This document shows positions 7,995-30,478 of a stretch of DNA of 36,297 nucleotides, one piece after another; position 1 is the stretch's first letter, and each line of letters opens with the position of its first letter. The translations under genes and the position numbers were made by a program. The stretch comes from Thermodesulfovibrio sp. (lineage in GTDB: Bacteria > Nitrospirota > Thermodesulfovibrionia > Thermodesulfovibrionales > UBA6898): NCBI GenBank assembly GCA_013824615.1, contig PNOC01000037.1, positions 1-36,297 of the forward strand, in the 5' to 3' direction. The notes beneath the pieces are model-generated. The model was not told the DNA's origin. It did no database searches and saw nothing but the letters and a program-made list of their open reading frames with translations.

Positions 7995-8009
7995 AAACAA
8001 TCCTCCACC

Positions 8010-11690: not shown

Positions 11691-11732
11691 CTCGCACGTT
11701 TTTTGAGTCGTTCCTTAAAAAACAGCAACATT

Positions 11733-11758: not shown

Positions 11759-11777
11759 AACAAAGCCTCCCCTATAT

Positions 11778-11792
11778 AAGTAATCATTACTT
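11778..11792. promoter_or_regulatory. 15-bp perfect palindrome upstream of the plus-strand promoter
   Basis: AAGTAATCATTACTT has seven-base arms around a single C. It ends two bases before the predicted -35 box at 11795, the usual place for an activator or repressor site acting on the SUMF1-like gene. Confidence 0.5.
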
Positions 11793-11794
11793 AA

Positions 11795-11823
11795 TTGCAA
11801 ATATAGTGCCAAGCTCTTAAAAT
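11795..11823 (+). promoter_or_regulatory. Sigma70-like promoter for the SUMF1-like gene
   Basis: TTGCAA (11795-11800), a 17-base spacer and TAAAAT (11818-11823) match the consensus at 4/6 and 5/6. Transcription would start near 11830, about 64 bases before the ATG at 11894. Confidence 0.45.
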
Positions 11824-11854
11824 ATGCCGATAAGCTCGCTAAACACAAGGCTGC

Positions 11855-11863
11855 ATTATAGCA
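11855..11863 (-). promoter_or_regulatory. Extended -10 promoter for the minus-strand cytochrome operon
   Basis: On the minus strand the sequence is TGCTATAAT, an extended -10 element with a perfect TATAAT. No good -35 is seen, as is usual for extended -10 promoters. The start near 11848 gives a leader of about 225 bases before the DUF1670-like ATG and runs through the plus-strand promoter, so the two transcripts would interfere. Confidence 0.45.
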
Positions 11864-11893
11864 AAATGCCTTAAAATAATATATAGTATCCGG

Positions 11894-13824: not shown

Positions 13825-13860
13825 CAGCATACCTCTCAGAGCAGGATAGAATTAATAAAA

Positions 13861-14826: not shown

Positions 14827-15858
14827 CTACTTCCTCGCCGAAAGATATTGAAACATCGAAATGCGGGCAGTAAACTGCTCGGTAACATAAATGCGGTCTG
14901 TGTTATCTATGGCTATCCCGGCAGGCAGAAAGAATTCCCCTGCCTGGGTCCCATGACTCCCGAAAAAGAGCAGAATCTCGCCCTCTTTGCTGAATATCTG
15001 CACATTCTGGAATGCAGCATCTACGACATACACGTGGCCTTCGGAATCCACGGCAATACCCTTAGGGCGGGCGAAGCAGCCGACACAGTCTCCAAGCTGG
15101 CCGAATTTGCGGATGAATTTGCCGTCAGGACTGAATATCTGTACTCTGAAATTCTGGGTGTCAGAGACATAGATGTTGCCCTCTTTATCAAGCGCAATAT
15201 GAGACGCGGTATGTAAGTCCCCGCCTTCTACCCCAAGTTTTCCGAAGGTGAAGAGCATTTTTCCATCGAGCCCAAAGGCCATAACCCGGTTTTTGCGGGT
15301 GTCTACAACATACAGTCGCTGCCGGTTGTCATCCAGCGCTATACCGGTCGGGTTCTCAAAATCGCCAGGTTTTCCTATAGAGGTAACAAACCGGAAGTCA
15401 CGGTCAAAAACGAAGACCTTGCGTTCACTGATATCAGTCACATAAACCCTGCCATCCCGTGCAGAAACCGCAATCCCGACCGGCTGGGGCATTTTCCCCA
15501 TGCCGGATTCACCGATGAACCTGACCTTCTTGTTTTTTCTGTCGAAGACAACAACCTTTCCGACTTCACTAACGTAAACCCGCTCCTGAGCATCAACCGC
15601 AATGCCATAAGGCTTCGTCAGTTGAAACTCGTTGCCTGTCCCGAAGATTGCATCGCTGAAGGAACTGCTCTCTTCGACATCGAGGCTCGTCTTCAGCTGG
15701 CCCAAATATTTGATCCGGGGAGGGTCAGGGGGCAGGGGCCAGATAAGATCGGGGATTGCCACCTTTTCAGTGGCACACCCCGCCAGAATGCCCAGCGTAA
15801 AAAGTATAACGATTTGTCCGAATGCTCTGAATTTCAATTTTCTGCTCATGTCTATCAT
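14827..15858 (-). CDS. NHL-repeat six-bladed propeller lipoprotein (paralogue 2)
   Basis: A 343-residue lipoprotein; the lipobox is LAGC (Cys28). I chose the ATG at 15858 (after GAGGTG) over the longer frame, which would overlap the upstream cytochrome; the ATG at 15849 is an alternative. The segment LIWPLPPDPPRIKYLGQL after the lipobox matches the propellers at 8010 and 23582. Six NHL blades follow, for example KPYGIAVDAQERVYVSE, QPVGIAVSARDGRVYVTD, NPTGIALDDNRQRLYVVD and RPKGIAVDSEGHVYVVD. A GDCVGC cysteine pair in blade 4-5 is unusual for this family and could form a disulfide. Its likely job is a protein-docking scaffold on a membrane next to the nine-haem and tetrahaem cytochromes (inference). 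Confidence 0.93.
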   Translation of the reverse strand: MIDMSRKLKFRAFGQIVILFTLGILAGCATEKVAIPDLIWPLPPDPPRIKYLGQLKTSLDVEESSSFSDAIFGTGNEFQLTKPYGIAVDAQERVYVSEVGKVVVFDRKNKKVRFIGESGMGKMPQPVGIAVSARDGRVYVTDISERKVFVFDRDFRFVTSIGKPGDFENPTGIALDDNRQRLYVVDTRKNRVMAFGLDGKMLFTFGKLGVEGGDLHTASHIALDKEGNIYVSDTQNFRVQIFSPDGKFIRKFGQLGDCVGCFARPKGIAVDSEGHVYVVDAAFQNVQIFSKEGEILLFFGSHGTQAGEFFLPAGIAIDNTDRIYVTEQFTARISMFQYLSARK

Positions 15859-15877
15859 TACACCTCTGGTTCTGGGT

Positions 15878-16663
15878 TTACATCTTGTGACAGTTATCAC
15901 AGATCTCAAAGTCGGTATTTGCCTTGTACCGGAACAACTTTATCCAGTCCGAGCTGTGAGGATTGTGGCAGCTTCCGCAGTAAAACTTCTTGCCAGGACG
16001 CGCAGGGTCGGTGGCAGACTTCTTCTTTTTCAGCGGTAGACCAATGGGATGGCCAGCTGTTGAGAAACCGGAGACGGCATGAGGGGTCTTCCTCACCTGG
16101 GGGTGGCACTCAAAGCAGAGGCCCACTGCGTCCTGTTTAAGCAGCGCCATCTCCTCCGCAACATGCGGCTTATGACAGCCCAGGCAGATACCTCCGGCTA
16201 CCGGCATATGGATATTTTTCTTTGTAAATTCTTTTTTCTCATGGCAGTCATAACAAAGATCCGGCACCTTCTTCAGCAGCAGTTTTTCATGTGCAGACTT
16301 ATGCGGAGAGTGGCAGCCGGTGCAACTGCCGATGCCTACCGGCGCGTGTATCGACTTGCCGGCAAACTTGGCTTTATCATGACAGCCGAAACAGAGATCC
16401 GGCTGCTCGGCTGAAAGCCCTTTCGGGAACTTGTTTGTCTTTTTGTGCGGAATGTCGCTGGCATCAATACCGGGGTGGCAGGTGGGGCAGCCCATCTGGA
16501 CAGCAGCATGGACGACCTTCCCCTTCGAGAGTTCTTCGTGACAGGAGAGGCAGTCCGGGCCGGCAGCAGATACCCCCTGACTGTCAAGCTGGAATATCCC
16601 GGCGGCAATTATTAAAGCGGTGAGACAGACGAGAAAAAACACCCTGTTCTTTGCAAAAGGCAT
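15878..16663 (-). CDS. Nine-haem periplasmic c-type cytochrome
   Basis: A 261-residue exported cytochrome. Nine CxxCH sites can be read: CLSCH, CPTCH, CFGCH, CTGCH, CYDCH, CLGCH, CFECH, CGSCH and CDNCH (last residues). The spacing CFGCHDKAKF..CTGCHSPHKS, CYDCHEKKEF..CLGCHKPHV is the doubled-CXXCH repeat, about one haem per 28 residues, with histidines (IHAPVG, IHMPVAG) conserved between pairs as candidate distal ligands. I chose the ATG at 16663, which has GAGGAG at the right distance; the first ATG four codons earlier has no such site. The NHL gene starts 19 bases downstream. High haem density and small size suit a periplasmic electron shuttle. Confidence 0.95.
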   Translation of the reverse strand: MPFAKNRVFFLVCLTALIIAAGIFQLDSQGVSAAGPDCLSCHEELSKGKVVHAAVQMGCPTCHPGIDASDIPHKKTNKFPKGLSAEQPDLCFGCHDKAKFAGKSIHAPVGIGSCTGCHSPHKSAHEKLLLKKVPDLCYDCHEKKEFTKKNIHMPVAGGICLGCHKPHVAEEMALLKQDAVGLCFECHPQVRKTPHAVSGFSTAGHPIGLPLKKKKSATDPARPGKKFYCGSCHNPHSSDWIKLFRYKANTDFEICDNCHKM

Positions 16664-16753
16664 AGCGCTCCTCATTTTCTCAGCAGTATCTTCATCTTCA
16701 GCCTACTGTCCATTGTACATTTCTCATAAACTAACAAAACAGCCGGAATTCTG

Positions 16754-19720
16754 TCAATCGGCTTCAGAAGAACCGGCCTGCAGGACCCTGAATAGCATGC
16801 CCGGAACCGGCCCGGCAGAGACGAGTACCGGGTGTGTTGCCCAGCGTTTTCTCATCCGTCCGGTCTCTCCCTGTGCAAGGTTCCCTGCCATTTCGGCCGC
16901 CAGGAGATAGCGCAGTTCCGGCTCAGTCCTGGCCAGACCTCCATCTATCATAGCCCCTGCGGTCTGAACAATGCCGGCCGCATCTCGCCTTCCAAGGGCC
17001 TTAAAAAAGATCAGCCAGCTCGTATCTGTCTTTGTCATGGTTGCGGTGCAAGACCCTGATTCAAGACTTCGCCAGATTCTTTCCAACTCCTCAGGCCTCA
17101 GATTAGGCACCAACCGCAAGGCCGTATTGAAGAGCACGGAGGTCCTCATATCATCAGGGACCGCGGCGCAATCATAAAAAATCTGTCTGAGCGCAGCCGC
17201 CTGGGCTGAAAGCTCAGGGGAGCCGGCTTCAGGCCGGGATTTCTGAAGAATGAGGTCACGCAACTGCATGGCACGGTAGACCTCCAGGGAGTGTGGATAG
17301 AACGGTGTCGGGGTCACATGGGTATCGACAGCTTCCTGCTTCTGGCCCCCCAGCAGCTCGAGGATAGGGAGCGGTTCTGAGGCGAGCGAGAGCATCTCCC
17401 GGGCGTCAGCCTTCATAAATCTGGCCCGGGTTGCGTTCTGGTCCAGGACCGGATAGTAGTCTGAGTTGCCCTGGACAGGAAAGGTCTCTATGAATTTTCT
17501 GAGGACCCTGCTGTTGCCGACCATTCTGATCTGAATATCCTGAAGGTTTCTCATGCTGACCCTTTTAAGAAGCATATCCAGTTCAGGAGATGCGAATATC
17601 CCGGGACCAGGCTCAGGGACCTGCTGATTGGACGCAACAATCAGTATGTCGCCATAACTCGGGGCATAGACTACAAAATCAGCAAACTGTAAAGATACAG
17701 ACTTCAGGACTGACATGACCAGGGGCAGGTCGATCTCATAAAGCTGCATCCACTGGACAAAGAGACCTTTGTCATTAAGATACCGGCTGACCAGCCGGTA
17801 GAACTCCTCTGAAAAAAGACCTGAAACACCGCTCACCCATGGATTTGAAGGTTCCGAGATGATGATGTCATATTTTTTGTTATGCGCAGAGAAGTAGGTT
17901 TTTGCGTCTTCAATATAAATACTGCTGCGGGGGTCTGTAAAGGCACGATCAACAAAATTACCGAACTTTCTGGCCCCGTTCACCATCTCCCGCTCAATCT
18001 CGATGGTATCAACGCGTTCGAGCTGAGAAGAACCAAGCAGGGCATGTGTGGTCAGACCGGAGCCCAGTCCGATGTTCGCCGCTGTTTTGGCATTGGGATT
18101 CAGAGAAAGAGGGAGCGCCGCGGCAAAGACCATGGTAGCCTCGTCAATATGCCCCGCAGCATTCTCCCGCATATGGATTGAGGCGTCGGGTTTGCCGTTC
18201 GTCCGGATCTGCATGACCCCGCTGTTCTGCAGCACCATGCTGACTGTCGCTGTCTTGCCATCCTCGTGAAAGACAAGACGGCTGTTGTCTTGGGTGACTG
18301 TCCCGCCTTCACGGTACACGCCGGATGCCATTTTATAAGAGTCAAGTTCGACAAACAGCAGCACACCGGCTATCACCGCAAGAGAGAACGCAGTCACCGC
18401 TGCGGGAATCTTCTTCTGTGGATAACCGGCTGCAGGACTCCAGAGCAGGGCCAGGCCGAGCAATATATCCAGGCCTGCCCCGAACGCCAGCAGGCCTTTA
18501 AGTCCAAGCAGAGGGAGACCAAGATGTATTGCAAAAAAAACACCGGCAATGGCTCCTATCGTGTTAGCAGCATAGACAGCCCCGATACTCCGCTCCCCGA
18601 AGCCCCGCTGCAGAAGGATATACGTTATCAACGGCAGGGTCATCCCCGCACAAAACGCTGCCGGCAGCATAATGGCAGAAGCAAGAGCGTGACTTGAGAT
18701 ATTGAAGAGCGCATACCCTCCCTCTGTCTTGGCTATATTCTTCATGAGCCACTGCATGACCTCGAACGTACTGCCATAAAGGGGCAGGGTCAGCAGGGCC
18801 AAGACCCCCATAATGAGCTGAATGAAAAGGAGATACCGGAGCGGCTGCCCGATACGGTCTATCCGCTTCTGTATCCAGAGCCCCCCCAGGGCGAGTCCCA
18901 GAATAAAGGCGCTGAGCATCAGCTCAAAAGCATGGGTGGAGCTGCCCAGCACGAGACTGAGCATCCGTATCCAGCCGACCTCGTAGATAAAGGAGGCGGT
19001 CCCGGTGAGCAGCGAAACTGCCAGCAGGGCACGGTACAGGCCGCGGCCAGCCGGTACCTCCTCAGGCTTTGCAGACAATACCGGAGAGACCTGGGGCCCC
19101 TCTTTGGCTGACATATACCAGATGGCGGCCGCAATCGCTATATTCAGCATTCCGGCCAGCCGGATAGTCCCGGGCAGACCAGCCAGACTGACCAGCCAGA
19201 ACCCGCTGGCCACCACTCCGGCTGCGGCCCCAATGCTGTTGGCAAAATAAAGCAGCGCAAGAGATTTTCCCGGATCTTCAGGAAAACGTCTTAGGACTGC
19301 TCCGCTCATGAGCGGAAAGGTCATGCCAAGGAGAACCGTCTGGGGGAAAATGAGAGCAGAGGAAAGCAGCCACTTGTACGCATTGACTGTTGCCGGACTG
19401 CTTAAGGCAGGGATAGCCGTATTAAATGAAAAACTGACCGCCTTTTCAAAGACCTCGTGAAAAAGCAGGGCTGACAATCCGATCGCTCCCTCTGCCAGCG
19501 CATACCCGAGAAACAGATTCCTCCAGCGCCCCATATACCGGCTGCTGAGATACGAACCCAGCGCCATCCCGCCCATAAAGATGGCAAGGACAAGAGTCTG
19601 TGCATAGGCAGCATGCCCCAGGAACAGTTTGAGATAGTGGGTCCAGATTGATTCATAAATAAGCCCGGAGACGCCGGACAGAGAAAAAAAAAGGATAAGC
19701 ACCGGATAGCGCCGCGCCAT
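16754..19720 (-). CDS. Membrane-fused spermidine-synthase-like protein (MFS-like plus methyltransferase fold)
   Basis: A 988-residue protein. Residues 1 to about 455 form many hydrophobic helices with MFS/transporter-like repeats (GGMALGSYLSSRY, LLGMTFPLMSGAVLRR and, later, AGMTLPLITYILLQRGFG; ANSIGAAAGV and ANTIGAIAGV), suggesting an internal duplication. Residues about 520-750 form a spermidine-synthase-like Rossmann fold: NIGLGSGLTTHALLG at 549, the acidic TIEIE strand, DAKTYF, and SEPSNPWVSGVSGLFSEEFY. The DxxDPxGP catalytic loop of true spermidine synthases is replaced by SEPSNPW, as usual in these fusions, so polyamine synthesis should not be assumed. The C-terminal 200 residues are soluble and helical. 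It lies 63 bases after the unknown lipoprotein and 90 before the nine-haem cytochrome gene, probably in one operon. Confidence 0.88.
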   Translation of the reverse strand: MARRYPVLILFFSLSGVSGLIYESIWTHYLKLFLGHAAYAQTLVLAIFMGGMALGSYLSSRYMGRWRNLFLGYALAEGAIGLSALLFHEVFEKAVSFSFNTAIPALSSPATVNAYKWLLSSALIFPQTVLLGMTFPLMSGAVLRRFPEDPGKSLALLYFANSIGAAAGVVASGFWLVSLAGLPGTIRLAGMLNIAIAAAIWYMSAKEGPQVSPVLSAKPEEVPAGRGLYRALLAVSLLTGTASFIYEVGWIRMLSLVLGSSTHAFELMLSAFILGLALGGLWIQKRIDRIGQPLRYLLFIQLIMGVLALLTLPLYGSTFEVMQWLMKNIAKTEGGYALFNISSHALASAIMLPAAFCAGMTLPLITYILLQRGFGERSIGAVYAANTIGAIAGVFFAIHLGLPLLGLKGLLAFGAGLDILLGLALLWSPAAGYPQKKIPAAVTAFSLAVIAGVLLFVELDSYKMASGVYREGGTVTQDNSRLVFHEDGKTATVSMVLQNSGVMQIRTNGKPDASIHMRENAAGHIDEATMVFAAALPLSLNPNAKTAANIGLGSGLTTHALLGSSQLERVDTIEIEREMVNGARKFGNFVDRAFTDPRSSIYIEDAKTYFSAHNKKYDIIISEPSNPWVSGVSGLFSEEFYRLVSRYLNDKGLFVQWMQLYEIDLPLVMSVLKSVSLQFADFVVYAPSYGDILIVASNQQVPEPGPGIFASPELDMLLKRVSMRNLQDIQIRMVGNSRVLRKFIETFPVQGNSDYYPVLDQNATRARFMKADAREMLSLASEPLPILELLGGQKQEAVDTHVTPTPFYPHSLEVYRAMQLRDLILQKSRPEAGSPELSAQAAALRQIFYDCAAVPDDMRTSVLFNTALRLVPNLRPEELERIWRSLESGSCTATMTKTDTSWLIFFKALGRRDAAGIVQTAGAMIDGGLARTEPELRYLLAAEMAGNLAQGETGRMRKRWATHPVLVSAGPVPGMLFRVLQAGSSEAD

Positions 19721-19783
19721 CAGGCCCCACCACCCGGAAAGCAGGAAAAAACAGGCAGGCAGATACAGGGAAGCAGCCCCTGA

Positions 19784-20788
19784 TTATTTCGCATCACGAC
19801 TGAGGTTTTTCACCGGCTGGTCCGGTTTCTGCGTCTTCAGATTCTTTTTTTCAGCAGCTGCAGAGAATTTTTCAAGATCAAGGGTACCGTCAGAGCGCAG
19901 CAGGGCAGAGGCATCATCAGAGGTGACATCTGCCGGAGACCAGGCGGAAATCTCGGGAACAAGATAGAGATTGTCCGGGGGATAGCCATCGCAGATGTCT
20001 TTCCAGAATTCCCCTACGCACCGGCCCAGATAGCCACCACCGACAAGCACCTTGCGGGGACTGACCGCGGCCAGGAATTTAAGCAGCCTTTTTTTGTCGG
20101 CAGGCTTCAGTCCACCGGAAGTGGTCCGCCTTGAGAACAGATACAGCACTGATTCCGACTCGTTCGTAACTTCATTGATATACCGCATGTATTCATCGCG
20201 GCCGTCCCCGTAGCGATAGGAAGAGGCCTCGCCATAGTCCCCGGGAAGCACCAGCAGCACCAGTTTCTTTGCTGTTGACGCGTATTCAAGGAAATCCCTG
20301 AGCATCCTTTCCTGGGCCTGCATCAGCCTGCCTTTACTCGAAAAAACCTGACTCTGGAGAAATTGCTGCAGGGCATTGAGCTGCGCCTCTCCGGGAAACG
20401 GTTCCAGAAAGGAGCTGCTCTCGGCATCAAAGAAGGCATAATAGGCAGGGTGTATTATCACATACAGATCTCCCTGGTCCAGATAGTTGCGGTAGGCAGC
20501 ATAGTCGCGTTCGTCGAGATCGGCAAGCTCTTTTATCAGAAATCGTCTGTAGGCAGATGCACGCCAGGTTGTGTTCGCCTCCAACGTCGCATTGCGCTGT
20601 TTAATGGCATCAAGAACCTGCGCGACCTCTTCCCCTTCAGGGGGCTTAATCACCGAGGCAAGCATGAACGTCGTATCAGCAATCACCGTAGCCTGCTTTG
20701 CACAGCCACCGAACAGAAAGATTGAGATTGTTACTATTGCTGCCATTGCAGTAATGGATACCTTCATACCCGGATGTTCCACGCTCAC
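19784..20788 (-). CDS. Lipoprotein of unknown alpha/beta family (copy A)
   Basis: I do not recognise the family. A 334-residue protein with lipobox GGC (Cys29). It starts with GTG in a four-base GTGA overlap with the TPR gene; an ATG seven codons later is an alternative start. It is 40-50 % identical by eye to the protein at 27012. Shared blocks are VIIHPAYYAFF, RDFLEYASTAKKLVLLVLP, YINEVTNESESVLYLFSR, LLKFLAAVSPRKVLVGGGYLGRC and LYLVPEISAWSPAD. Strand-helix alternation with Gly-rich loops suggests a Rossmann-like enzyme or binding domain on the periplasmic side of a membrane. His and Cys in the IHPAYY and GGGYxGRC blocks are invariant between copies and are candidate functional residues. Confidence 0.88.
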   Translation of the reverse strand: MSVEHPGMKVSITAMAAIVTISIFLFGGCAKQATVIADTTFMLASVIKPPEGEEVAQVLDAIKQRNATLEANTTWRASAYRRFLIKELADLDERDYAAYRNYLDQGDLYVIIHPAYYAFFDAESSSFLEPFPGEAQLNALQQFLQSQVFSSKGRLMQAQERMLRDFLEYASTAKKLVLLVLPGDYGEASSYRYGDGRDEYMRYINEVTNESESVLYLFSRRTTSGGLKPADKKRLLKFLAAVSPRKVLVGGGYLGRCVGEFWKDICDGYPPDNLYLVPEISAWSPADVTSDDASALLRSDGTLDLEKFSAAAEKKNLKTQKPDQPVKNLSRDAK

Positions 20789-21786
20789 CTGGCGACCTGT
20801 CCCTTCGGATATTTCATGGAAGGATGCCCCTGCAGATACTGTTCGAGCTGCTCAATCTCATCCTCCACTGCCCGTTGTGAGGCGACGGTGCTGAAAACAA
20901 CTTTTGTACCGTATTCGAGATAGAGCCTGAAAGAATCGATCGCCTTCTGCACCATGTCTTTCCGGAGATAGGTGCGCGCAACATTATAGTGTGCCTTTGC
21001 AAAAGAAGGGTCCAGTTCAACCGCTTTCTTGTATGCCAGAAAAGCCTCCTCAATCGCCTCTTCATGGGTATAGGCATTGCCGATATTATAGTAAAAACCC
21101 GGCTGGTCCGGCATCAGTTCTATGGCCTTTTTGTACTCGTCGATCGCATAGCGGTAAAAATGTCTCTCTTTATAGGAATAGCCGAGATTATTGTGTGCCA
21201 ACGCCGACAGGGGATTCAGTCTGATCGCCTGTCTATAGGCCTTGGCCGCATCATCGAATATTTCAGCCTCTTCATAGATGGTTCCGAGGACAAACCAGGC
21301 CCAAAAGTTATCGGGGTCCCTCTCAACCGCATTTTTAGCATATATTAGTGCCTGCCCCGTATTGATCTGCCGCAGTATCTCCCCCAGGGCAGTCAAAACC
21401 CTGGCGTTTTCGCCGGCTTTGTCGGTAGTCTTATCAAGCATGGCCACAAGCTTCTCCGCCGCCCCGGAGCGCCTGCCTTCCCTGGCCGCAAGGAGCAGGG
21501 AGAGTACGGTTGCCTCATGATTTTCCCCGTGTTTTTGAATAACGGTCAGAGCCTCCTCAGCCTTCTTAAATTGTCCCGCCCGATAACACGCCGAGGCATA
21601 TGCTCCTATAGCGTCGACCGGAAGCTGGTCCATAGCTGTCTGTTCGTATGCAGCGATGGTCTTGTCCCAATCTCCAATCAAGAAGAACCTCTGTGCATCC
21701 TCAAGCGGCGATGCAAGGCTCTGTCCGCATAAGACAAATAACAACGCGACACCCAACAAAACTATTCCACCATCCCGCCGTATCAT
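20785..21786 (-). CDS. Exported TPR-repeat protein
   Basis: A 333-residue protein with a signal peptide (cleavage after SLAS, residue 26). At least six TPR units are visible: the best are WAWFVLGTIYEEAEIFDDAAKAYRQ, ALAHNNLGYSYKERHFYRYAIDEYKK and FAKAHYNVARTYLRKDMVQKAIDSF. TPR superhelices bind peptides or proteins, so this is probably a periplasmic assembly scaffold. Its start overlaps the stop of the GT-C-like gene (ATGA) and its stop overlaps the start of the lipoprotein gene (GTGA), so the three products are made together and are likely partners. Confidence 0.92.
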   Translation of the reverse strand: MIRRDGGIVLLGVALLFVLCGQSLASPLEDAQRFFLIGDWDKTIAAYEQTAMDQLPVDAIGAYASACYRAGQFKKAEEALTVIQKHGENHEATVLSLLLAAREGRRSGAAEKLVAMLDKTTDKAGENARVLTALGEILRQINTGQALIYAKNAVERDPDNFWAWFVLGTIYEEAEIFDDAAKAYRQAIRLNPLSALAHNNLGYSYKERHFYRYAIDEYKKAIELMPDQPGFYYNIGNAYTHEEAIEEAFLAYKKAVELDPSFAKAHYNVARTYLRKDMVQKAIDSFRLYLEYGTKVVFSTVASQRAVEDEIEQLEQYLQGHPSMKYPKGQVAR

Positions 21787-23378
21787 GATTTATTGTGTTG
21801 TCTCTCAATCATCAGATTAATCTGCTCCCTAACCAGGCTTTTCGGAATTGAATATGCTTTCACGACCGGCTCGTTGTCAACCACGTTCCTAACAAATACT
21901 AATGTATAATTGTCCAAAAATACCGGTACCCATTCACTGTCATCCAGCAGTACCGTGACCAGAGGAATTACTTTGTCAGTATTTGAGAAAAAATACCGCG
22001 TAATAATATATTTTACTGCATAGGCATCGAGTGTTGATTTCCACAAAGGTTTCCCCATAATCTCAACCGCGTTAGCACCATCAATATCATTGGTCTGTAA
22101 AAAAACATGCTCACTAAGGACCCTTCCATCGATAAAAACTCTCCTCCCGGGAGAGCACCGCCATATCAGATAGCCTCCATAGTCGTAATAATTGTACATA
22201 TTCCCCTGAAGGTTGTTATTAACAACAAACTCGGCAGCTGACAAAGGAAAACTATCAGCATCAATAAACTGGCCTGCCATAAATGCTTTCAAATTTTCAC
22301 GGCCGTTCCAGGCAAAAAAAGCAGCAGAAATAATAGCCAAAGACAGAACAAACGACCTGATAATTGTCGGGTATTTCGTTCCCGAGCAATATCTTCCCAG
22401 GGACGGCAGCGCCGCAATGAGAAAAAAAGGTATATAGCGAACCTGATAAAAAGAGAAATATCCGGTCCCAGCAAGAATGAGCCCTGCTGAAATATCGGCC
22501 CTGTCAATTCTCCGCAAAAAACCCGCCACAGCCGAAATTCCCAGTAACCAATATAGAATGACCGCATATTCTCTTTGCTCCGCAAAGTAATCCATCGTTG
22601 ATACATAGTCAGTAATAAAGCTGGCATGGGTCAGAGACATTTTGAAATACTCAATCACAACGTGATATGAGTTCGGATTAATCAGAGAAAAAATCAACCC
22701 GGAACTACAAGCCATGAAAAGCCCATTATATACTTCTTTTTTGAGAGGCCTAAACAAAGGATGAATGAACTTTATCCCCTCTGCAATCGGATATAAGATA
22801 AGAATCCCCTGCCCAATAATAAATCCGGCATGAAGGTTCGCCCAGACAAGCATGAGCAGCGAGACCATAATGACGACCGAATACGACGGGCGCGTCTCCG
22901 AGCGCGTAATCTTCTCAAGCATAAACAGAAGGATAGAGAAACCAAGGAACGAAAATACCTGTGGTCTTTCTAACGGATACATTCTAAGAACTACGATAGA
23001 AAATATCATGAGCAATCCGGCGAAGACAACATGATCTCCATGCTCTCGTTTTGCCATGAAATAGAGAAGACCGGCAAAAAGAATACAGCGCATGACGAAA
23101 ATTCCCGGCAAACCGCCCACGCTGTAAAAAAAATAATAGATTGCCTGACTGAACCAGTAGGAACTCAAAATAATCTGCTCTCTCATGGAAAAGCTGGGAG
23201 GTGTGGTGTAGGAAAAAATATCTTTTAGTGGAAGCGCATTATTCTCCCATATCCATTGCCCTGTTTTAAGGTGCCAGAAAAAATCAAGATCAGCGATTGG
23301 CCTCAATAGATAGGGCAATGACGCGCAAACAAGAATCAGGGCAAGCAATGCCGGTTTATATCGTGTAATGTGTATCAT
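21783..23378 (-). CDS. Polytopic membrane protein, GT-C glycosyltransferase-like (copy A)
   Basis: A 531-residue protein with about ten or more hydrophobic helices. After the first helix comes RPIADLDFFWHLKTGQW, where an acidic DLD sits in the first external loop, as the catalytic acidic motif does in GT-C enzymes (PMT, ArnT, STT3). The same block with DIFSYTTPP recurs in the paralogue at 25398. The C-terminal soluble part (from about 380) shares NMYNYYDYGGYLIWR, VFIDGRVLSEH and YSIPKSLVREQINL with it. GT-C enzymes use lipid-linked sugars on the outer side of the membrane; this assignment is inference from topology and motif, and a transport or polymerase role is possible. It heads a tightly coupled operon with the TPR and lipoprotein genes. 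Confidence 0.78.
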   Translation of the reverse strand: MIHITRYKPALLALILVCASLPYLLRPIADLDFFWHLKTGQWIWENNALPLKDIFSYTTPPSFSMREQIILSSYWFSQAIYYFFYSVGGLPGIFVMRCILFAGLLYFMAKREHGDHVVFAGLLMIFSIVVLRMYPLERPQVFSFLGFSILLFMLEKITRSETRPSYSVVIMVSLLMLVWANLHAGFIIGQGILILYPIAEGIKFIHPLFRPLKKEVYNGLFMACSSGLIFSLINPNSYHVVIEYFKMSLTHASFITDYVSTMDYFAEQREYAVILYWLLGISAVAGFLRRIDRADISAGLILAGTGYFSFYQVRYIPFFLIAALPSLGRYCSGTKYPTIIRSFVLSLAIISAAFFAWNGRENLKAFMAGQFIDADSFPLSAAEFVVNNNLQGNMYNYYDYGGYLIWRCSPGRRVFIDGRVLSEHVFLQTNDIDGANAVEIMGKPLWKSTLDAYAVKYIITRYFFSNTDKVIPLVTVLLDDSEWVPVFLDNYTLVFVRNVVDNEPVVKAYSIPKSLVREQINLMIERQHNKS

Positions 23379-23523
23379 AGCACATGCTCACAACACCGCG
23401 ATCAAATGACCCTCCGAGCCGCAAATTCGCAGACAGCACTCTGCCCTCCGGCAGACAGCTTTGCACTGAGTCCTTCGTACGGGCGGAAGGAATACCGCCG
23501 TATAGAATAAATAATCGCCCATA
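23356..23523 (-). CDS. Candidate small protein (55 aa) in the gap before the GT-C-like gene
   Basis: An ATG at 23523 follows GGAG with five bases between. It opens 55 codons (MGRLFILYGGIPSARTKDSV..., ending in THYTI) and overlaps the start of the GT-C-like gene by 23 bases. It has no recognised domain. The central part is also strongly structured at the nucleotide level, so it may instead be a noncoding repeat or RNA element. If translated, it could couple ribosomes to the gene downstream. Confidence 0.35.
   Translation of the reverse strand, partial: YGRLFILYGGIPSARTKDSVQSCLPEGRVLSANLRLGGSFDRGVVSMCYDTHYTI
23421..23502 (-). other. Structured element: two hairpins in the 203-bp gap
   Basis: TACGGGCGG (23478-23486) pairs with CCGCCGTA (23495-23502), allowing one bulge. 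GCAAA (23421-23425) pairs with TTTGC (23460-23464) and encloses the stem CTGCC/GGCAG (23441-23454). GCAGACAGC is repeated directly at 23429 and 23451. No T run follows, so it is not an intrinsic terminator. It does not fit a GEMM or cobalamin riboswitch core. Confidence 0.4.
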
Positions 23524-23581
23524 CACACTCCTAAAACAAATCGCTTAGATATTATTCATCAATTCAACACCTGCAGGCGTA

Positions 23582-24601
23582 TCAATGTTCTATGGTGTTT
23601 CTTAGATACTGGAATATCTGAATTCTGGTATTAATCTGATCAACCACATAAATCTTGTCGTTTTCATCTATGAATATGGATGAGGGCAGCTGAAATTCGG
23701 CAGGCCCGGCCCCGTTTGAGCCAACTGCCAGCAGATTGTTGCCGTCAAAATCAAGGATCTGAAAGTTTCCAAAAGCAGCGTCAAGCACATAAATATGCCC
23801 TTCTGAATCCAGCGCAACGCCTTTGGGACGTGCGTAATTTCCGGCTGAACTCCCGACGCTGCCAAGGGCTTTGATAAAGCCGCCTTGCGCATCAAAGATC
23901 TGCAGCCTGAAATTTCCTGAATCCACGACATAAATCCGGCCGCTTTTGTCGACAGCCACTCCATAGGGAATATTGAACTCTCCGTTGCCCTTTCCCCGTT
24001 TGCCGAATTGCCGCAGCAGCCGGCCTGAAAAATCATAAATAAACACTGCGTGTTTCCTGGCATCAGAGACAATCAGGCGTTTCTGCGCTGCATCGAGCGC
24101 CATGCCCGCCACGGTATCAACCTCTCCGCTTCCGAAATCCCTGATAAATTTTCCTGAAAGATCGTAATGGAATATCTTCTTGCCGGCAGTATCCGCGACA
24201 AAAAATCTGTCCTCTGCCACGGCGATACCTGAAGGGAGGCGCAACTGATTCAGGCCGAGTATGCTGAAATTTCCGGTCTCAAAATCAAACACAAAAACGC
24301 CCCCGATGTCAGTCACATAGAGTTTATTTCGGCTGTAGGCGACCCCATAAGGCTTGATAAACTTAATCTCGCCCCCTTCCCCGAATAAGAAGCTGGACAT
24401 AATTCTGCCCCCGTCCTGCTTCTGCACATCCTTGCTGCCGACTATCATGTCAACAAATTTGATCCGTGGTTTTTCCGGAGGCAGGGGCCAGTAAATTTCC
24501 GGAGGAATTTCTGCGATCTTCTGAGCACAGGCAGACAGCAGCAGACCTGAAACCAGTGCAGCCAGAAAAAGAAAAAAGCTCAGCTGAAATTTGCTACTCA
24601 T
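23582..24601 (-). CDS. NHL-repeat six-bladed propeller lipoprotein (paralogue 3)
   Basis: A 339-residue lipoprotein; the ATG at 24601 gives a signal peptide ending in LSAC (Cys25). An in-frame TTG five codons upstream is less likely; no strong ribosome binding site is seen for either. The post-lipobox segment IYWPLPPEKPRIKFV matches the propellers at 14827 and 8010. NHL blades include KPYGVAYSRNKLYVTD, LPSGIAVAEDRFFVAD, IPYGVAVDKSGRIYVVD and RPKGVALDSEGHIYVLD. Unlike the other two it has no tetrahaem cytochrome directly next to it; its neighbours are a small lipoprotein gene upstream and the GT-C-like gene downstream. It may therefore dock the modification machinery to cytochromes (inference). 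Confidence 0.92.
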   Translation of the reverse strand: MSSKFQLSFFLFLAALVSGLLLSACAQKIAEIPPEIYWPLPPEKPRIKFVDMIVGSKDVQKQDGGRIMSSFLFGEGGEIKFIKPYGVAYSRNKLYVTDIGGVFVFDFETGNFSILGLNQLRLPSGIAVAEDRFFVADTAGKKIFHYDLSGKFIRDFGSGEVDTVAGMALDAAQKRLIVSDARKHAVFIYDFSGRLLRQFGKRGKGNGEFNIPYGVAVDKSGRIYVVDSGNFRLQIFDAQGGFIKALGSVGSSAGNYARPKGVALDSEGHIYVLDAAFGNFQILDFDGNNLLAVGSNGAGPAEFQLPSSIFIDENDKIYVVDQINTRIQIFQYLRNTIEH

Positions 24602-24653
24602 GGCGTATGCTAACAAAATCGGACAAAAACTGACAAGACGAAGGAGAAGTCAA

Positions 24654-25229
24654 TCAGCGAACGCAGGCGACCAGCGGCATGGTCTCCGGAACAAACATCG
24701 ACCGGCCGAGATGGACTATTTCCGGGCGCTGCTCCCTGTTCCGTTTCAGGTCAAACGTAAGGCAATACTCGGGGCCAAACGGCCTGACACTGAAATCAAA
24801 ACCTTCAATGTCATTGCGCAGTTCAAGCCGGAACACGACTGTTTTCTGTTTAAGACGAACATCACTGAGCAGTGTGGTATTGTGAGCCTGGAGGCCGGCA
24901 ATCACTCCTGACTCAACCTGAATACTGCCGGAATAGATCGTGGGCTTCCCCGGAGTCTCGAAACCGAAGCGGTCCGACTTTGCCACCCTGACGTGCCAGG
25001 CATTGCCGTTCCTCCAGAGATAATAGCCGCCCCCGGCCCTTATGGCGGACATGTCGGGCTGGCCCTCAAACATGGCCGTATGCGGAAATTGCGCTCCGCC
25101 GGGCTGAAGCAGGGAAGGTTCAGATCCCGGGGGACCCAGAACTGCATTGCACGACGACAGCAATAAACCAGAAAGGGCCAGCAGCAACACCTTATAAACA
25201 ACTCGCCTTAGCCAGATCAGTTTCAGCAT
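24654..25229 (-). CDS. Small lipoprotein of unknown function
   Basis: I do not recognise the family. Starting at the ATG at 25229 gives 191 residues with a basic n-region and lipobox LSSC (Cys27); a start 29 codons earlier would bury the signal peptide. The mature part (YYLWRNGNAWHVRVAKSD, SGSIQVESGVIAGLQAH, VVFRLELRNDIEGFDFSVRP) looks like a single beta-rich domain. A perfect TTGACA lies 30 bases upstream, but the matching -10 would give almost no leader. It lies 52 bases before the NHL gene, probably in one transcript. Confidence 0.75.
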   Translation of the reverse strand: MLKLIWLRRVVYKVLLLALSGLLLSSCNAVLGPPGSEPSLLQPGGAQFPHTAMFEGQPDMSAIRAGGGYYLWRNGNAWHVRVAKSDRFGFETPGKPTIYSGSIQVESGVIAGLQAHNTTLLSDVRLKQKTVVFRLELRNDIEGFDFSVRPFGPEYCLTFDLKRNREQRPEIVHLGRSMFVPETMPLVACVR

Positions 25230-25397
25230 AAACCTATAGAAACATGTTCCAGGTAAGATGTCAAGAATTTTCCGGAAATAAATATGTGAACTACCAGGGA
25301 ATTCTTCCTCGGCCACTGCAGTTGGCGATTTATACGGTTGTATCTGTTAATATATCATCGTTGATCATGAGAAAAGCCATCCTGAGCGAAATACAGC

Positions 25398-26975
25398 ATG
25401 CGTCGTAACGCGGTCATTGCCTACCTGGCCCTTCTTGTCGTCCTGTCACTCTTTCTATTGCGTCCTATTGCAGATTCTGATTTTTTCTGGCACCTAAAAA
25501 CCGGAGAATGGACCTGGGAAAACCGGCAGTTGATGACTAAAGATATTTTTTCCTATACTACGCCCCCAGGGCTCACGGCAAGAGAACAGATCATTCTCAC
25601 TTCCTACTGGCTCAGCCAGATATCCTATCATCTGTTTTATCTCCTCGGAGGTATACCGGGAATCTTTGTCCTGCGGGCACTTCTTGCTGCGGGGATCTTA
25701 TATTTTATGGTAAGAAGAAAACACGGTGATGATGCACTGTTCGCAGGACTGCTGGTCCTTTGTTTCATTGTAATCTTAAAGCTCTATCCCACGGAAAGAC
25801 CTCAGGTGTTTTCATTCCTCTTCTTTGCCATGCTCCTCTATTTCATGGAGAAGATCCTGGACTCTCGGACCTCTCAGCCGCGAACGTATGTCGCCATGCT
25901 CCCACTGCTGATGCTCCTCTGGGCAAACTTTCACGGGGGGGTAATCCTTGGCCAGGGGGTGATCGTCCTTGTTTTGTTAACAGAGGGGATAAAGTTTCTT
26001 CACCCCTTGCTCAGTCCTGCTGGAAAGCAGGAATACAGACAACTCCTGACTGCAGGCCTGGTCGGACTGGCTGCCTCCCTCATCAATCCCAACACATACC
26101 ACTTGACTGTGGAGCTTTACAGATCGTCCCTGTATCACACCGCCTTTCTCCTGGAGTATCAGTCAACCGTTAATCTCTTCACGGAACAGAAGGAGCCGGC
26201 CTTCATTCTGTTCTGGCTGCTGGAACTCGCAGCAGGCCTCGGCATTCTTCTTAGAACGAATAAGCTTAACATCACCGAGGCTGCGCTGCTTGCCGGCACA
26301 GGCTACTTTGCCTTCACCCGCATGCGCTATATTCCTTTTTTCCTGATCGCAGCACTGCCGGCCATCGGTAAGTATTATTCAGCAACAGGTTTCTTGAAAC
26401 TGGTGAGAACAGGCGTTTTTTCCCTTGCCCTGTTTGCTGCTGTTTTCTTTAGCTGGCAGATGCGTCCGGTCCTGCCCTATGTTTCTTCCGGGACATTGAT
26501 ACAGGACAATATCTTCCCGGTATCTGCTGTTGATTTTATCGCGGCCAACAATCTCAGGGGGAATATGTATAATTATTACGACTGGGGAGGGTATCTGATC
26601 TGGAGGCTTTCCCCTGAAAGGAAGGTCTTCATCGACGGCAGGGTGCTGAATGAACATATCTTCAAGCAATCCCTTAATATTGTCAGCGCAAATTCTTCCC
26701 TCATCATGGGACAGCCTGCCTGGAAGTCAGTACTGAATGCCTACTCGATAAACTATGTAATCACCCGCTATATCTTCCCGGACAACGGTAGCATCGTGCC
26801 TCTTGTCCCCGCGCTGCTGGCGGACAGCGAGTGGATACCGGTCTTCTTCGAGTCCGGGGCAGCCGTCTTTGTCAAGAGATCTCCTGAAAATTATCCCGTC
26901 ATCCGAAAATATTCGATCCCCAGGGAGGCTGTCCGCAGTGAGCTCAGCAATCTGACCGGCAGTCCCCCCCCCTGA
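25398..26975 (+). CDS. Polytopic membrane protein, GT-C glycosyltransferase-like (copy B)
   Basis: A 525-residue paralogue of the protein at 21783, with the same order of helices and blocks: RPIADSDFFWHLKTGEW, DIFSYTTPP, REQIILTSYWLSQISYHLFY, GGIPGIFVLRA, RPQVFSFLFF, WANFHGGVILGQG, NMYNYYDWGGYLIWRLSP, VFIDGRVLNEHIF and a C-terminal YSIPREAVR. The DSD in the first external loop is kept, supporting a functional acidic site. It is divergent from the small lipoprotein gene and convergent with the second unknown lipoprotein. The last codons contain nine C in a row (26964-26972). The ribosome binding site is weak. Function as a GT-C transferase is inference, as for copy A. Confidence 0.78.
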   Translation: MRRNAVIAYLALLVVLSLFLLRPIADSDFFWHLKTGEWTWENRQLMTKDIFSYTTPPGLTAREQIILTSYWLSQISYHLFYLLGGIPGIFVLRALLAAGILYFMVRRKHGDDALFAGLLVLCFIVILKLYPTERPQVFSFLFFAMLLYFMEKILDSRTSQPRTYVAMLPLLMLLWANFHGGVILGQGVIVLVLLTEGIKFLHPLLSPAGKQEYRQLLTAGLVGLAASLINPNTYHLTVELYRSSLYHTAFLLEYQSTVNLFTEQKEPAFILFWLLELAAGLGILLRTNKLNITEAALLAGTGYFAFTRMRYIPFFLIAALPAIGKYYSATGFLKLVRTGVFSLALFAAVFFSWQMRPVLPYVSSGTLIQDNIFPVSAVDFIAANNLRGNMYNYYDWGGYLIWRLSPERKVFIDGRVLNEHIFKQSLNIVSANSSLIMGQPAWKSVLNAYSINYVITRYIFPDNGSIVPLVPALLADSEWIPVFFESGAAVFVKRSPENYPVIRKYSIPREAVRSELSNLTGSPPP

Positions 26976-26995
26976 ATCAACGGAAGAGTCTGCGT

Positions 26996-27012
26996 GCCCG
27001 GCGACACCGGGC
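26996..27012. terminator. Perfect GC-rich hairpin between convergent genes
   Basis: GCCCGG (26996-27001) and CCGGGC (27007-27012) pair around CGACA, 20 bases after the copy-B stop and touching the stop codon of the opposing lipoprotein gene. There is no T run on either strand, so termination is uncertain. Confidence 0.35.
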
Positions 27013-28022
27013 TACTGATTATCAGGCGTATTGGAAAGGTTTCTTGTTTTCACGGCTGCGTTGTCACGAGTGCGGAGATTTTCCCGGACGTTGAGTGCCA
27101 GCTTCCTGATATCAATGAGCCCCTCACGCGTAATGACATCAGACGACATCTTCTCTGACATATCGGCAGGAGATACCGCTGCTATTTCAGGAACAATAAA
27201 GAGTTTTTCCTCCCCATAATGCTGCTCAAGATCACGATAAAAATCATCGAGGCAACGGCCGACGTATCCTCCGCCAAGCAGTATTTCCTTCGGTCGCACG
27301 GCATAGAGGAACTTCAGAAGAAGTTTGCGATCCTTCACGCTTAACATCCCCCTGCTGGGTTTCCGCGAGTACAGGTATAAGACAGAGTCTGATTCATTCG
27401 TCACCTCGTTCAGAAACCGCAGGTATTCATTCTGAGCATCACGAAATTTATAGGCAGAAAAATCCTTATATCCCTTCGGCAGAATCATAATGACCAGCTT
27501 CTTTTCGGTGGAAACATACTCCAGAAAATCACGCAGCACTTTTTCCTGGGCCTTCATCAGCTTTGCCTTGCCCGAGAAGGCCGTCGCACTGAGAAAGCGG
27601 TCCATCGCATTTTGCGTCGTTGCCCCGGTCAGATTATCAGGGAACAGCTCGCTGTCATGAAAAAAAGTATAGTAGGCAGGGTGAACAATAATATATACAG
27701 AACCGTTCGCGAGATATTTGCTGAACTCGGCATACTCACGTTCCGGTACCTGGTGCAGGTTTTTGAACATCGGCTTCTGGTATGCCCTCTGAATCCAGAG
27801 GGGGTCCTGCTCAATGCCGGAATTCCGGCCTTTAATTTGATGCAGGATTTCTTCAGCATGCTGCGGATCCATGGAAATGCTGTTTCTGACATTCATTGCC
27901 GGCGGCTGGATGCTCATGGAAACAGTACTCGCACACCCTGCAAGGGTCCCCGCACCTGCAAGCGCAATAAACACTGAGAGAAGTGCGATTAAACGCCTTC
28001 TTTGTCTGTCAAATAGTATCAC
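27012..28022 (-). CDS. Lipoprotein of unknown alpha/beta family (copy B)
   Basis: A 336-residue paralogue of the protein at 19784, starting at a GTG preceded by GGAG, with lipobox LAGC. Shared blocks: VYIIVHPAYYTFF, LRDFLEYVSTEKKLVIMILP, LRFLNEVTNESDSVLYLYSR, LLLKFLYAVRPKEILLGGGYVGRC and LFIVPEIAAVSPADM. Conservation is highest in the strands and Gly-rich loops and lowest in the N- and C-terminal 50 residues, which is what one expects of a folded alpha/beta domain with flexible ends. It faces copy B of the GT-C-like gene, as copy A lies in an operon with copy A of that gene, so the two families probably act together. I cannot name a function. Confidence 0.88.
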   Translation of the reverse strand: MILFDRQRRRLIALLSVFIALAGAGTLAGCASTVSMSIQPPAMNVRNSISMDPQHAEEILHQIKGRNSGIEQDPLWIQRAYQKPMFKNLHQVPEREYAEFSKYLANGSVYIIVHPAYYTFFHDSELFPDNLTGATTQNAMDRFLSATAFSGKAKLMKAQEKVLRDFLEYVSTEKKLVIMILPKGYKDFSAYKFRDAQNEYLRFLNEVTNESDSVLYLYSRKPSRGMLSVKDRKLLLKFLYAVRPKEILLGGGYVGRCLDDFYRDLEQHYGEEKLFIVPEIAAVSPADMSEKMSSDVITREGLIDIRKLALNVRENLRTRDNAAVKTRNLSNTPDNQ

Positions 28023-28378: not shown

Positions 28379-28867
28379 ATGAAAGAAGCAATAGAAACAG
28401 CGATCAAGATGGAAACGGATGCAATTGCTTTTTATAGCGAAGCAGCAAACAAGACAAACCATTCGTTCGGAAAAGAAATGTTTAAGGGGTTTGTGAAAGA
28501 TGAGGCACGCCATCTGCGGATGCTTAAGGAGATACTGAAGGGTATCGACATTGAGTTTGAATTCGTCCGGCCGAAGGAGACGATCAAAACAGTCTTCAGT
28601 GAGCAGAAAGATTCCATGCTGCAGCGCGTCAAGGCATTGGAAAATGAACTTGAAGCTATAAAAATTGCAATGCATATGGAAAAAGACGGGTTTGACTATT
28701 ATAAGGCTGCAGCTGCAAAGGCGACAGTACCAAAGGAAAAAGAACTGTTCGAGCGCATGGCAGTTGAAGAGAATGACCACTACGCTATCCTGAATGAGAC
28801 CTATACGTTTCTCGACAACACCGGCAGCTGGTATATGTATGAGGAGCGGGGCATCATTGAGGGGTAG
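28379..28867 (+). CDS. Rubrerythrin-like diiron protein without rubredoxin domain
   Basis: A 162-residue soluble protein predicted as a four-helix ferritin-like bundle. Diiron ligand patterns are spread over four helices: KMETDAIAFY (helix 1), the DEARHLRML ExxH motif (helix 2), MEKDGFDYYKAA (helix 3) and the EENDHYAIL ExxH motif (helix 4). There is no C-terminal CxxC pair, so it lacks the rubredoxin-like centre of classical rubrerythrin. Such proteins reduce peroxide or handle iron in anaerobes. An AGGGGG site precedes the ATG. The flavoprotein gene starts six bases after its stop, so a flavin/iron-sulfur partner may supply its electrons (inference). Confidence 0.92.
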   Translation: MKEAIETAIKMETDAIAFYSEAANKTNHSFGKEMFKGFVKDEARHLRMLKEILKGIDIEFEFVRPKETIKTVFSEQKDSMLQRVKALENELEAIKIAMHMEKDGFDYYKAAAAKATVPKEKELFERMAVEENDHYAILNETYTFLDNTGSWYMYEERGIIEG

Positions 28868-28873
28868 CCTGAT

Positions 28874-29443
28874 ATGAAGACCATTGCATTCCTTGGCAGC
28901 CCGAGGAAAGATGGCAACACAGAGCTGCTGCTGAACGAGACGATCAGGGGCATCGAGTCGGCAGGAGAAACGGTCAGGACCTATGCGCTCAACCTGATGA
29001 AGATAGCGCCGTGCCAGGACTGCGGGGGCTGCGAGAAATCCGGTGTCTGCATCCTTGATGACGACATGAACGCGCTGTATGAGGAGATCAGGACTGCTGA
29101 CCGGATTATACTGGCCTCGCCGATCTTTTTTTTCGCGCTGAGCGCACAGTCAAAGATACTGATAGACCGCTGTCAGAGTTTCTGGTGCGAGAAGTATCTC
29201 CTGAAAAAGCCGCTGCCCGAAGGTCCTCACGGTAGAAAAGGCCTGTTGCTGCTTGTCGGCGGTATGAAAAAAGAGATCGGCATTGAATGCGGAGACGCCT
29301 CGGCAAAGGCCTTCTTCAGGACAATCAGTGTTAAAGAACATAAAGTCCTCGGGTTCCTGGGCGTAGACGCCAAAGGCGCTATTAAAGACCACGCCTCGGC
29401 ACTGCAGGAGGCATTTGAGGCAGGCAGAGCACTGGTAAGCTGA
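28874..29443 (+). CDS. Iron-sulfur flavoprotein-like NAD(P)H-dependent FMN reductase
   Basis: A 189-residue flavodoxin-fold protein. GSPRKDGNT (8-16) is the FMN phosphate loop of this family. CQDCGGCEKSGVC (Cys47, 50, 53, 59) is the compact CX2CX2CX5C motif that holds a 4Fe-4S cluster in archaeal-type iron-sulfur flavoproteins. The SPIFFFALSAQSKILIDRCQSFW segment is the usual core. The likely reaction is transfer of electrons between a cluster and FMN to a redox partner. It starts six bases after the rubrerythrin-like stop, which fits a peroxide- or oxygen-reducing pair. GAGGGG precedes the start. Confidence 0.93.
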   Translation: MKTIAFLGSPRKDGNTELLLNETIRGIESAGETVRTYALNLMKIAPCQDCGGCEKSGVCILDDDMNALYEEIRTADRIILASPIFFFALSAQSKILIDRCQSFWCEKYLLKKPLPEGPHGRKGLLLLVGGMKKEIGIECGDASAKAFFRTISVKEHKVLGFLGVDAKGAIKDHASALQEAFEAGRALVS

Positions 29444-29503
29444 AGGTAAAATCTTGCTGCCGGATTACAGCGGGTAACCCTTCAGCCATCTGACCGGTAG
29501 ATT

Positions 29504-30478
29504 ATGAAATACCCTGAATATATCCAGCTCTACCCCACCCTGCGGTGCAACCAGCGCTGTTCCTTCTGCTTTAATGATACCAGTGGCGGCGCTATGTATG
29601 GAGATATGCGGCATGGGGATGCATCGAAGCTCCTTGGCATTATGGAATCGCATGGCATCAGAGAACTGGATATCATGGGAGGGGAACCTTTCATGCTGTC
29701 CTGGATGCCGGACTTCATCCGGGAGGCTGTCAATCGGAAACTTGCAGTCAATATCAGCACAAACGGCAGCCTTCTGCCGGCGCTGCAACAACTTGACGGC
29801 CTGCGCTCCGACCTGCTGACAATCGGTATCTCTCTGGAAGGCAGCACCCCGGGTGCGCATGATTCTCTCACTGGCGGTTCTAACTTCCACGCGGCGATAG
29901 AAAGCCTGAAGTGGCTGCTCAATACAGGGCTCAATCCTTTGGTGAAAACCGTCGTAAGCGCCGACACTGTTGATGAAATACCGTCAATTATCAGTCTAAT
30001 CAGGCAAATGGGTGTCCGGCGATATTTTCTGATCCATATGGACTACTTTTCGGCTGACCCCTTGTTCCGGGAGAAGGTAATGAGTTATCAGGAATATATG
30101 CGGACTACCGGCCAGATCCTTGCAGAAAACAAAAATATGGAAATCGGGAGAGTAACCGCCTCCTGCTTCAACGGGACTGCGGCGGCAATGAACGTGCGCT
30201 GCGCAGGAGGAACAAAGAAGCTTGCGGTAATGCCTGATGGTTCTGTCCTGCCCTGCAATCTTTTTCAGGGCTTCCCCGAATTCCGGCTCGGGAACATTTT
30301 CTCCGACTCCCTGCTGCATATTATGTCACAACAGAAACTTGAATTTTTCAGGACTTTCCGCAGTAATCAATGCCGGGTATCGGACTGCGACAACAGAACC
30401 TCCTGCACCGGAGGCTGCCCTGCGCACGGATATTATCACCACCGAAACCCTGATAATCCGGATATCCGCTGCCTCTGA
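29504..30478 (+). CDS. Radical SAM enzyme with SPASM-like domain
   Basis: A 324-residue protein. The radical SAM cluster motif is CNQRCSFC (Cys15, 19, 22; CX3CX2C), followed by the GGEPF motif and an ISTNGS strand that bind S-adenosylmethionine. The C-terminal part has SPASM-type cysteines: RCAGGTKKLAVMPDGSVLPCN, then CRVSDC, SCTGGCPAHG and a terminal RCL, enough for at least one auxiliary 4Fe-4S cluster. SPASM enzymes modify peptides or proteins or act in haem d1/b-type tetrapyrrole synthesis; the substrate is unknown here and no small precursor peptide gene is visible. It starts 60 bases after the flavoprotein stop, probably in the same operon. Confidence 0.93.
   Translation: MKYPEYIQLYPTLRCNQRCSFCFNDTSGGAMYGDMRHGDASKLLGIMESHGIRELDIMGGEPFMLSWMPDFIREAVNRKLAVNISTNGSLLPALQQLDGLRSDLLTIGISLEGSTPGAHDSLTGGSNFHAAIESLKWLLNTGLNPLVKTVVSADTVDEIPSIISLIRQMGVRRYFLIHMDYFSADPLFREKVMSYQEYMRTTGQILAENKNMEIGRVTASCFNGTAAAMNVRCAGGTKKLAVMPDGSVLPCNLFQGFPEFRLGNIFSDSLLHIMSQQKLEFFRTFRSNQCRVSDCDNRTSCTGGCPAHGYYHHRNPDNPDIRCL

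Follow-up and report, generated by a model that had tools for sequence, protein, structure and literature searches.

Gene order at the locus

The window analysed here is an entire 36.3-kb contig (PNOC01000037.1) of Thermodesulfovibrio sp., from the 3.6-Mb assembly of an uncultured Nitrospirota bacterium. It encodes two related membrane proteins resembling class C glycosyltransferases (GT-C), termed GTA and GTB, two related lipoproteins, LIPA and LIPB, and a series of multihaem cytochromes that includes two homologues of the Geobacter filament protein OmcE. The role of GTA and GTB beside this cytochrome cluster is the subject of this report.

GTA (21783-23378, minus strand; 531 amino acids, copy A) shares an ATGA overlap with the gene of a tetratricopeptide repeat (TPR) protein (20785-21786, minus strand; TPR Pfam models), which itself shares a GTGA overlap with LIPA (19784-20788, minus strand; lipobox C29). 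Both overlaps were read directly from the sequence and place the TPR gene, translationally coupled, between GTA and LIPA. GTB (25398-26975, plus strand; copy B) and LIPB (27012-28022, minus strand) form a convergent pair with a 36-base gap directly upstream of the minus-strand run. Identity is ~55% between GTA and GTB and ~42% between LIPA and LIPB, both far above chance.

From ~25.3 kb to position 1, the main genes are almost all on the minus strand. They run in the order P220, the beta-propeller lipoprotein NHL2 (23582-24616; NHL Pfam model), GTA, TPR and LIPA, followed by SPD, a fused major facilitator superfamily/spermidine-synthase-like protein (16754-19720; NF037959 over its cut-off, PF01564 E 3.7e-18), CYT9, a nine-haem paired-CXXCH cytochrome (15878-16675; PF09699 E 1e-41), the beta-propeller lipoprotein NHL1 (14827-15909; NHL Pfam model), the first OmcE homologue (13905-14558) and a PPIC-type prolyl isomerase (12817-13830; Pfam match). 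Next come two small proteins, one of them DUF1670-like, and a 718-amino-acid TrAA12-like protein (9049-11205 and 11202-12106, minus strand), then NHL0, the second OmcE-like cytochrome (7218-8000), a seven-haem-type cytochrome and more cytochromes. On the other side, rubrerythrin-like, FMN-reductase-like and radical SAM/SPASM genes adjoin LIPB (28379-30478, plus strand), and radical SAM or FMN genes are also found near the cluster in loci L050 and L081.

A preliminary description of this DNA had reported the genes, coordinates and overlaps of the GT-C and lipoprotein region, the duplication of both genes, the convergent copy B, the membrane-fused spermidine-synthase-like gene and the nine-haem cytochrome followed by an NHL lipoprotein. 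All of these were confirmed from the sequence. The same description had missed both OmcE homologues.

Fold and conserved residues of the two duplicated families

No Pfam or NCBIfam family was found for GTA or GTB, and 20 members of the GT-C family searched against Pfam gave nothing beyond TPR tails and a single weak PMT_2 match, PF02516 being unmatched in all 20. A PF02516 search of the host genome also gave no match. The structure model of GTA is confident (predicted local distance difference test, pLDDT, 90.3) and at an E of 0.001 or below Foldseek retrieved 23 PDB chains, almost all of them oligosaccharyltransferase (OST)/STT3, AglB, PglB and DPY19 (8age, E 1e-7). In VIA the match extends over 462 residues with a Z of 21.3 and includes the C-terminal globular domain; ArnT, AftA/AftB and EmbA/B are also among the structural matches. 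The GT-C-like identity first proposed for these proteins is therefore borne out by a predicted transmembrane GT-C fold together with an acid in the first external loop (EL1). Some homologues carry TPR repeats fused at the C-terminus.

In an alignment of 77 GT-C proteins, Asp32 of EL1 is kept in all 76 filled rows, His183 and Arg314 are present in 77/77, and Glu257 of an EYxS block is found in 68/77 and replaced by Asp in GTA. GG at 401-402 and Asp417 are also conserved. The acidic motif of the first loop was thus rightly singled out in the preliminary description, but the IHPAYY block that it called invariant reads V/I-HP-[AGS]-YY, with only the His and Pro invariant or nearly so. Asp32, His183, Arg314, Glu257, the GG and Asp417 fit a GT-C active site, with the register relative to STT3 motifs set by inspection. 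Membership of the STT3/PF02516 family by sequence was ruled out by the lack of a PF02516 match, a profile comparison that gave no homology and an unconserved WWDYG Asp; since no convincing profile match to STT3 was obtained, the protein is not filed as an STT3.

For the lipoprotein, the C-terminal domain of the LIPA model (pLDDT 88.5) gives a match over residues 105-328 in VIA (Z 10.4, root-mean-square deviation 3.6, 163 residues), and the top rows are nearly all nicotinamidase/isochorismatase-like cysteine hydrolases. His113, Ser219 and Cys257 are each present in 45/46 lipoproteins, and E279 is conserved. Cys257, which lies in the GGGYxGRC block noted earlier, is, apart from the lipobox, the only conserved Cys and lies at the N-terminal end of the helix bearing the usual nucleophile. 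The Asp-Lys-Cys triad of these hydrolases is kept at the Cys only, its Asp and Lys positions being occupied by His113 and Ser219. Because Cys257 takes the nucleophile position and His113 and Ser219 those of the Asp and Lys, the lipoprotein, on its modelled fold, probably works as a hydrolase or thiol enzyme, with substrates in the envelope or among the cytochromes. Assignment to PF00857 isochorismatases by profile was rejected: there was no PF00857 match, and the agreement is limited to the modelled fold and the Cys position, for which the hhalign alignment shows the same register.

Linkage of GT-C genes to OmcE-type and pilin genes

We surveyed 176 genomes of the host's order. GT-C homologues are present in 84 of them and OmcE homologues in 68. 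Pairs of GT-C and OmcE genes within 3 kb number 27, against 0.7 expected under uniform placement, and fall in 18 of the 46 genomes that hold both among the matches listed. When profile matches are added, a GT-C gene lies beside an OmcE gene in 21 genomes of 10 families. As a control, none of 52 PF02516 STT3 places lies within 20 kb of OmcE. A GT-C gene thus adjoins a filament subunit gene above chance in the case of OmcE; for pilins, the cases are few. In a tree of the 77 GT-C proteins, several subfamilies entered the OmcE locus, with 11 changes by parsimony, at least five of which are forced by supported branches. GTA and GTB pair with each other (Shimodaira-Hasegawa-like approximate likelihood ratio test, SH-aLRT, 100) and, being mutual closest relatives, arose by local duplication. 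An unusual array was seen in a 6-Mb genome, where six GT-C homologues lie within 20 kb (L193, G078:C38 132000-151900).

The cytochrome encoded at 13905-14558 (217 amino acids) is a probable filament subunit. It has four CXXCH haem motifs, like the other OmcE homologues, and its residues 8-215 align by phmmer to residues 10-231 of Geobacter OmcE (PDB 7tfs, E 1.5e-22; 9yuq, E 3.6e-24), a near full-length match; the second homologue matches 7tfs with an E of 2e-17. OmcE filaments have been described as extensively glycosylated (PMC9473688, PMC11077965), and the glycan coat has been proposed to serve as insulation. Their role as wires in the cell is disputed (PMC11077965). No enzyme that glycosylates OmcE was named in the literature searched. 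The "secreted cytochromes" suggested at first as acceptors can therefore be narrowed to a specific one, and the 13905-14558 homologue is the leading candidate.

Across forty OmcE neighbourhoods a cluster is conserved that comprises CYT9, NHL1, OmcE, the prolyl isomerase, the DUF1670-like protein, the 718-amino-acid type, NHL0, a second OmcE and the seven-haem cytochrome. Both small proteins of the window, like the TrAA12-like one, are conserved in this cluster in many relatives. About half of these neighbourhoods hold at least one GT-C gene, in varying positions and on either strand. CYT9 homologues contain up to 21 haem motifs and recur next to LIP and NHL1. OmcE homologues with a GT-C gene nearby have 4.0 N-x-S/T sequons versus 2.1 in the others (p 0.003), a weak difference that stands at p 0.016 after correction for composition, uncorrected for phylogeny. 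We rejected this enrichment as proof of N-glycosylation, for which it is suggestive at most: conduit-type paralogues show an equal excess, so sequon counts do not discriminate. Two further types of cytochrome gene were seen at these loci. In several genomes an OmcE-like domain is fused into proteins of ~700 amino acids with 10 haem motifs (L125, L142, L143, L144 and L145), and in L112, L124, L133 and L135, all of one family, pairs of unnamed, very haem-dense proteins of ~280-306 amino acids with 12 haem motifs adjoin CYT9.

The GT-C family is not confined to cytochromes. In the host, a third GT-C gene (G000:C16, L199:6341-14776) sits between two N_methyl type IV pilin genes, with a PgfS/ArnC-like GT2, a GNAT acetyltransferase and MocA, DegT and RfbB-like sugar-modifying genes after it; this is likely a pilin-glycosylation locus. 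Three relatives (L190, L191, L195) likewise have a GT-C gene flanked by pilin genes. The GT2 type in the host locus suggests that the donor is a polyprenyl-phosphate monosaccharide. Near the surveyed loci, AglJ/PpgS-like GT2 genes and PMT_2 proteins also recur, as do GT-C proteins with TPR repeats that on inspection resemble TMTC (L049:6114-8072, L120:17965-19632, L122:7833-9374 and L064:2419-3357), so these surroundings are generally rich in glycosylation genes.

The lipoprotein behaves differently. It is present in 42 of the 176 genomes and sparse in the rest of the phylum, and of 56 lipoprotein genes just 8 have a GT-C gene within 3 kb. In relatives the order is NHL2-TPR-LIP(-CYT9) without a GT-C gene (NHL2, first gene of this ancestral unit, heads the same order in L048, L049 and L052-L056), indicating that GTA is an insertion in the host lineage. 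LIPB resembles the operon-type homologues in relatives more closely than LIPA does. Thus the overlaps of the tightly coupled copy A chain are real, but the chain is not ancestral. About half of the lipoprotein genes are found in NHL-TPR-LIP and/or CYT9 neighbourhoods and the remainder in housekeeping ones. Since about half of the copies are elsewhere and the relatives' operon lacks a GT-C gene, the lipoprotein stands as a component of its own that was in the operon before GTA. The two-gene cassette of GT-C and lipoprotein on which the preliminary description rested a single machine was accordingly rejected, the predicted lipoprotein fold moreover resembling the cysteine-hydrolase kind and not one for glycan transfer. 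Recurrence next to multihaem cytochromes is seen in part: LIP, GT-C and OmcE genes lie mutually within 25 kb in 12 genomes, but the two families mostly travel separately. Among the housekeeping neighbours of lipoprotein homologues are the tryptophan genes trpE, trpG and trpD (L070, L071, L073-L075, L078), KorA-like genes (L058-L068) and accBC/efp genes (L041, L083-L086).

Interpretation and comparison with known systems

What survives of the envelope-modification machine first proposed is its GT-C part, which recurs beside OmcE-type genes, but not the dedicated pairing with the lipoprotein. From this linkage we infer a glycosylation step. In our best reading, to which we give an even chance, GTA and GTB are filament-associated periplasmic glycosyltransferases whose target is the OmcE-type filament or one of its partners. 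An OmcE-type electron-transfer cluster would have gained such enzymes, which are predicted to face the periplasm with an STT3/DPY19 fold. By analogy, they would draw on a sugar linked to polyprenyl phosphate in the inner membrane and, using EL1 Asp32 and Glu/Asp257 of the EYxS block as active-site acids, would attach it to an exported acceptor before assembly outside the cell, most likely the co-encoded OmcE-type cytochrome or the NHL and multihaem partners. A probable task of the GTA-coupled TPR protein is to present or hold the acceptor, and the lipoprotein is an independent, older part of the NHL-TPR-LIP-cytochrome operon.

Several observations weigh against this reading. The main caution for the window copies is that 12 of the 19 members of the GTA/GTB subclade are not near cytochromes or pilins, and the window GT-C genes themselves do not adjoin the OmcE gene but are separated from it by 7-11 kb. 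Many genomes that gave no OmcE match also have members of the GT-C family, among them many of a distant family in the phylum (f29) with one copy each. Shared ancestry affects both the tree and the co-occurrence counts. As regards the proteins, the Asp of the WWDYG-like motif is kept in only 10/20 and 15/77 GT-C proteins, next to a conserved GG and a downstream D-G-R, and profile comparison by hhalign with STT3 proteins of the same order gave no homology, only a 29-column stretch. The isochorismatase-like match of the lipoprotein likewise lacks profile support, with an hhalign probability of 0.2% and a weak Foldseek E of 6e-3.

The main rival, which we consider rather unlikely, is that the target of the GT-C proteins is not the cytochrome but a polysaccharide or lipid of the cell surface, such as the lipopolysaccharide core, lipid A or a cytochrome-anchoring extracellular polysaccharide, electron-transfer and matrix genes being clustered. 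GT-C folds also serve lipid-linked glycans, as the ArnT, AftA/AftB and EmbA/B matches illustrate, GT-C homologues are found in sugar-biosynthesis loci, and Geobacter sulfurreducens requires an anchoring polysaccharide. However, the top structural matches are to enzymes that modify proteins (OST, DPY19, PMT) and not to lipid A or arabinan enzymes, and GT-C genes often directly adjoin OmcE or pilin subunit genes. A second alternative, in our view unlikely, concerns the lipoprotein, which would be a cytochrome-maturation or assembly factor handling thiols or haem through Cys257 and His113, unrelated to the GT-C genes. The lone conserved Cys and the conserved His would suit such a role, CYT9 lies within three genes of the lipoprotein in 11/51 cases, and 39 of the 42 LIP genomes also encode an OmcE homologue (16 expected); against it stand the housekeeping neighbourhoods without cytochromes that hold about half of the lipoprotein genes, and a predicted fold that looks hydrolase-type and not thioredoxin-like. 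Finally, the GT-C pair might be a chance passenger from a large mobile family that enters envelope loci of any kind, functionally unconnected with the cytochromes here, as the insertion of GTA into an older operon and the placement of most close relatives of GTA/GTB elsewhere would allow, but this is quite improbable given the excess of pairs within 3 kb, the several independent subfamilies, the 10 families of genomes and the translational coupling of GTA to TPR.

Beyond the window, and more tentatively than for GTA and GTB as filament-associated glycosyltransferases, we propose that cytochrome nanowires may have dedicated, exchangeable glycosyltransferases. STT3-fold GT-C enzymes would have been recruited repeatedly to OmcE-type loci, as happens in pilin and O-antigen loci, and would set the glycan coat of the wire for insulation, adhesion or phage shielding. 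A GT-C family that lacks a database model and lies repeatedly beside OmcE-type genes across an order provides concrete candidate genes. If the proposal is true, the rule of a filament gene accompanied by its own glycosyltransferase would hold for cytochrome wires as well as for pilins, giving a means to address the insulation and surface chemistry of the wires.

Among known systems, STT3/PglB/AglB (GT66, PF02516) share with GTA the predicted fold, including the C-terminal globular domain, and the EL1 acid. By inspection of the register, the EYxS Glu is placed as the Glu of SVSE/TIXE, and the (Y/F)xDWGG...D-G-R block as WWDYG...DNNT; unlike STT3, the GT-C proteins lack a PF02516 match, profile homology and a conserved WWDYG Asp. 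DPY19 and PMT/ArnT also have the GT-C fold (Z 16-18), and the use of a polyprenyl-phosphate monosaccharide by such enzymes would fit the PgfS/ArnC-like GT2 of the host pilin locus, whereas the PMT_2 matches of the GT-C proteins are weak (GTB, E 0.001). The lipoprotein resembles the isochorismatase/nicotinamidase-like cysteine hydrolases (PF00857) in modelled fold order and Cys position, and differs from them in having His and Ser for the triad Asp and Lys, in being an exported lipoprotein and in lacking a sequence-level match. The Geobacter OmcE filament (7tfs) is the counterpart of the 13905-14558 and 7218-8000 proteins, which are homologous to its subunit. A parallel to the arrangement is offered by TfpW/TfpO of Pseudomonas aeruginosa: the gene of TfpW, a GT-C enzyme, neighbours that of its substrate, a pilin to which it adds arabinose (PMC11841053). 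The likeness is one of gene placement and GT-C class, a glycosyltransferase gene beside a filament subunit gene, the subunit here being a multihaem cytochrome and, in another locus of the same host, a pilin.

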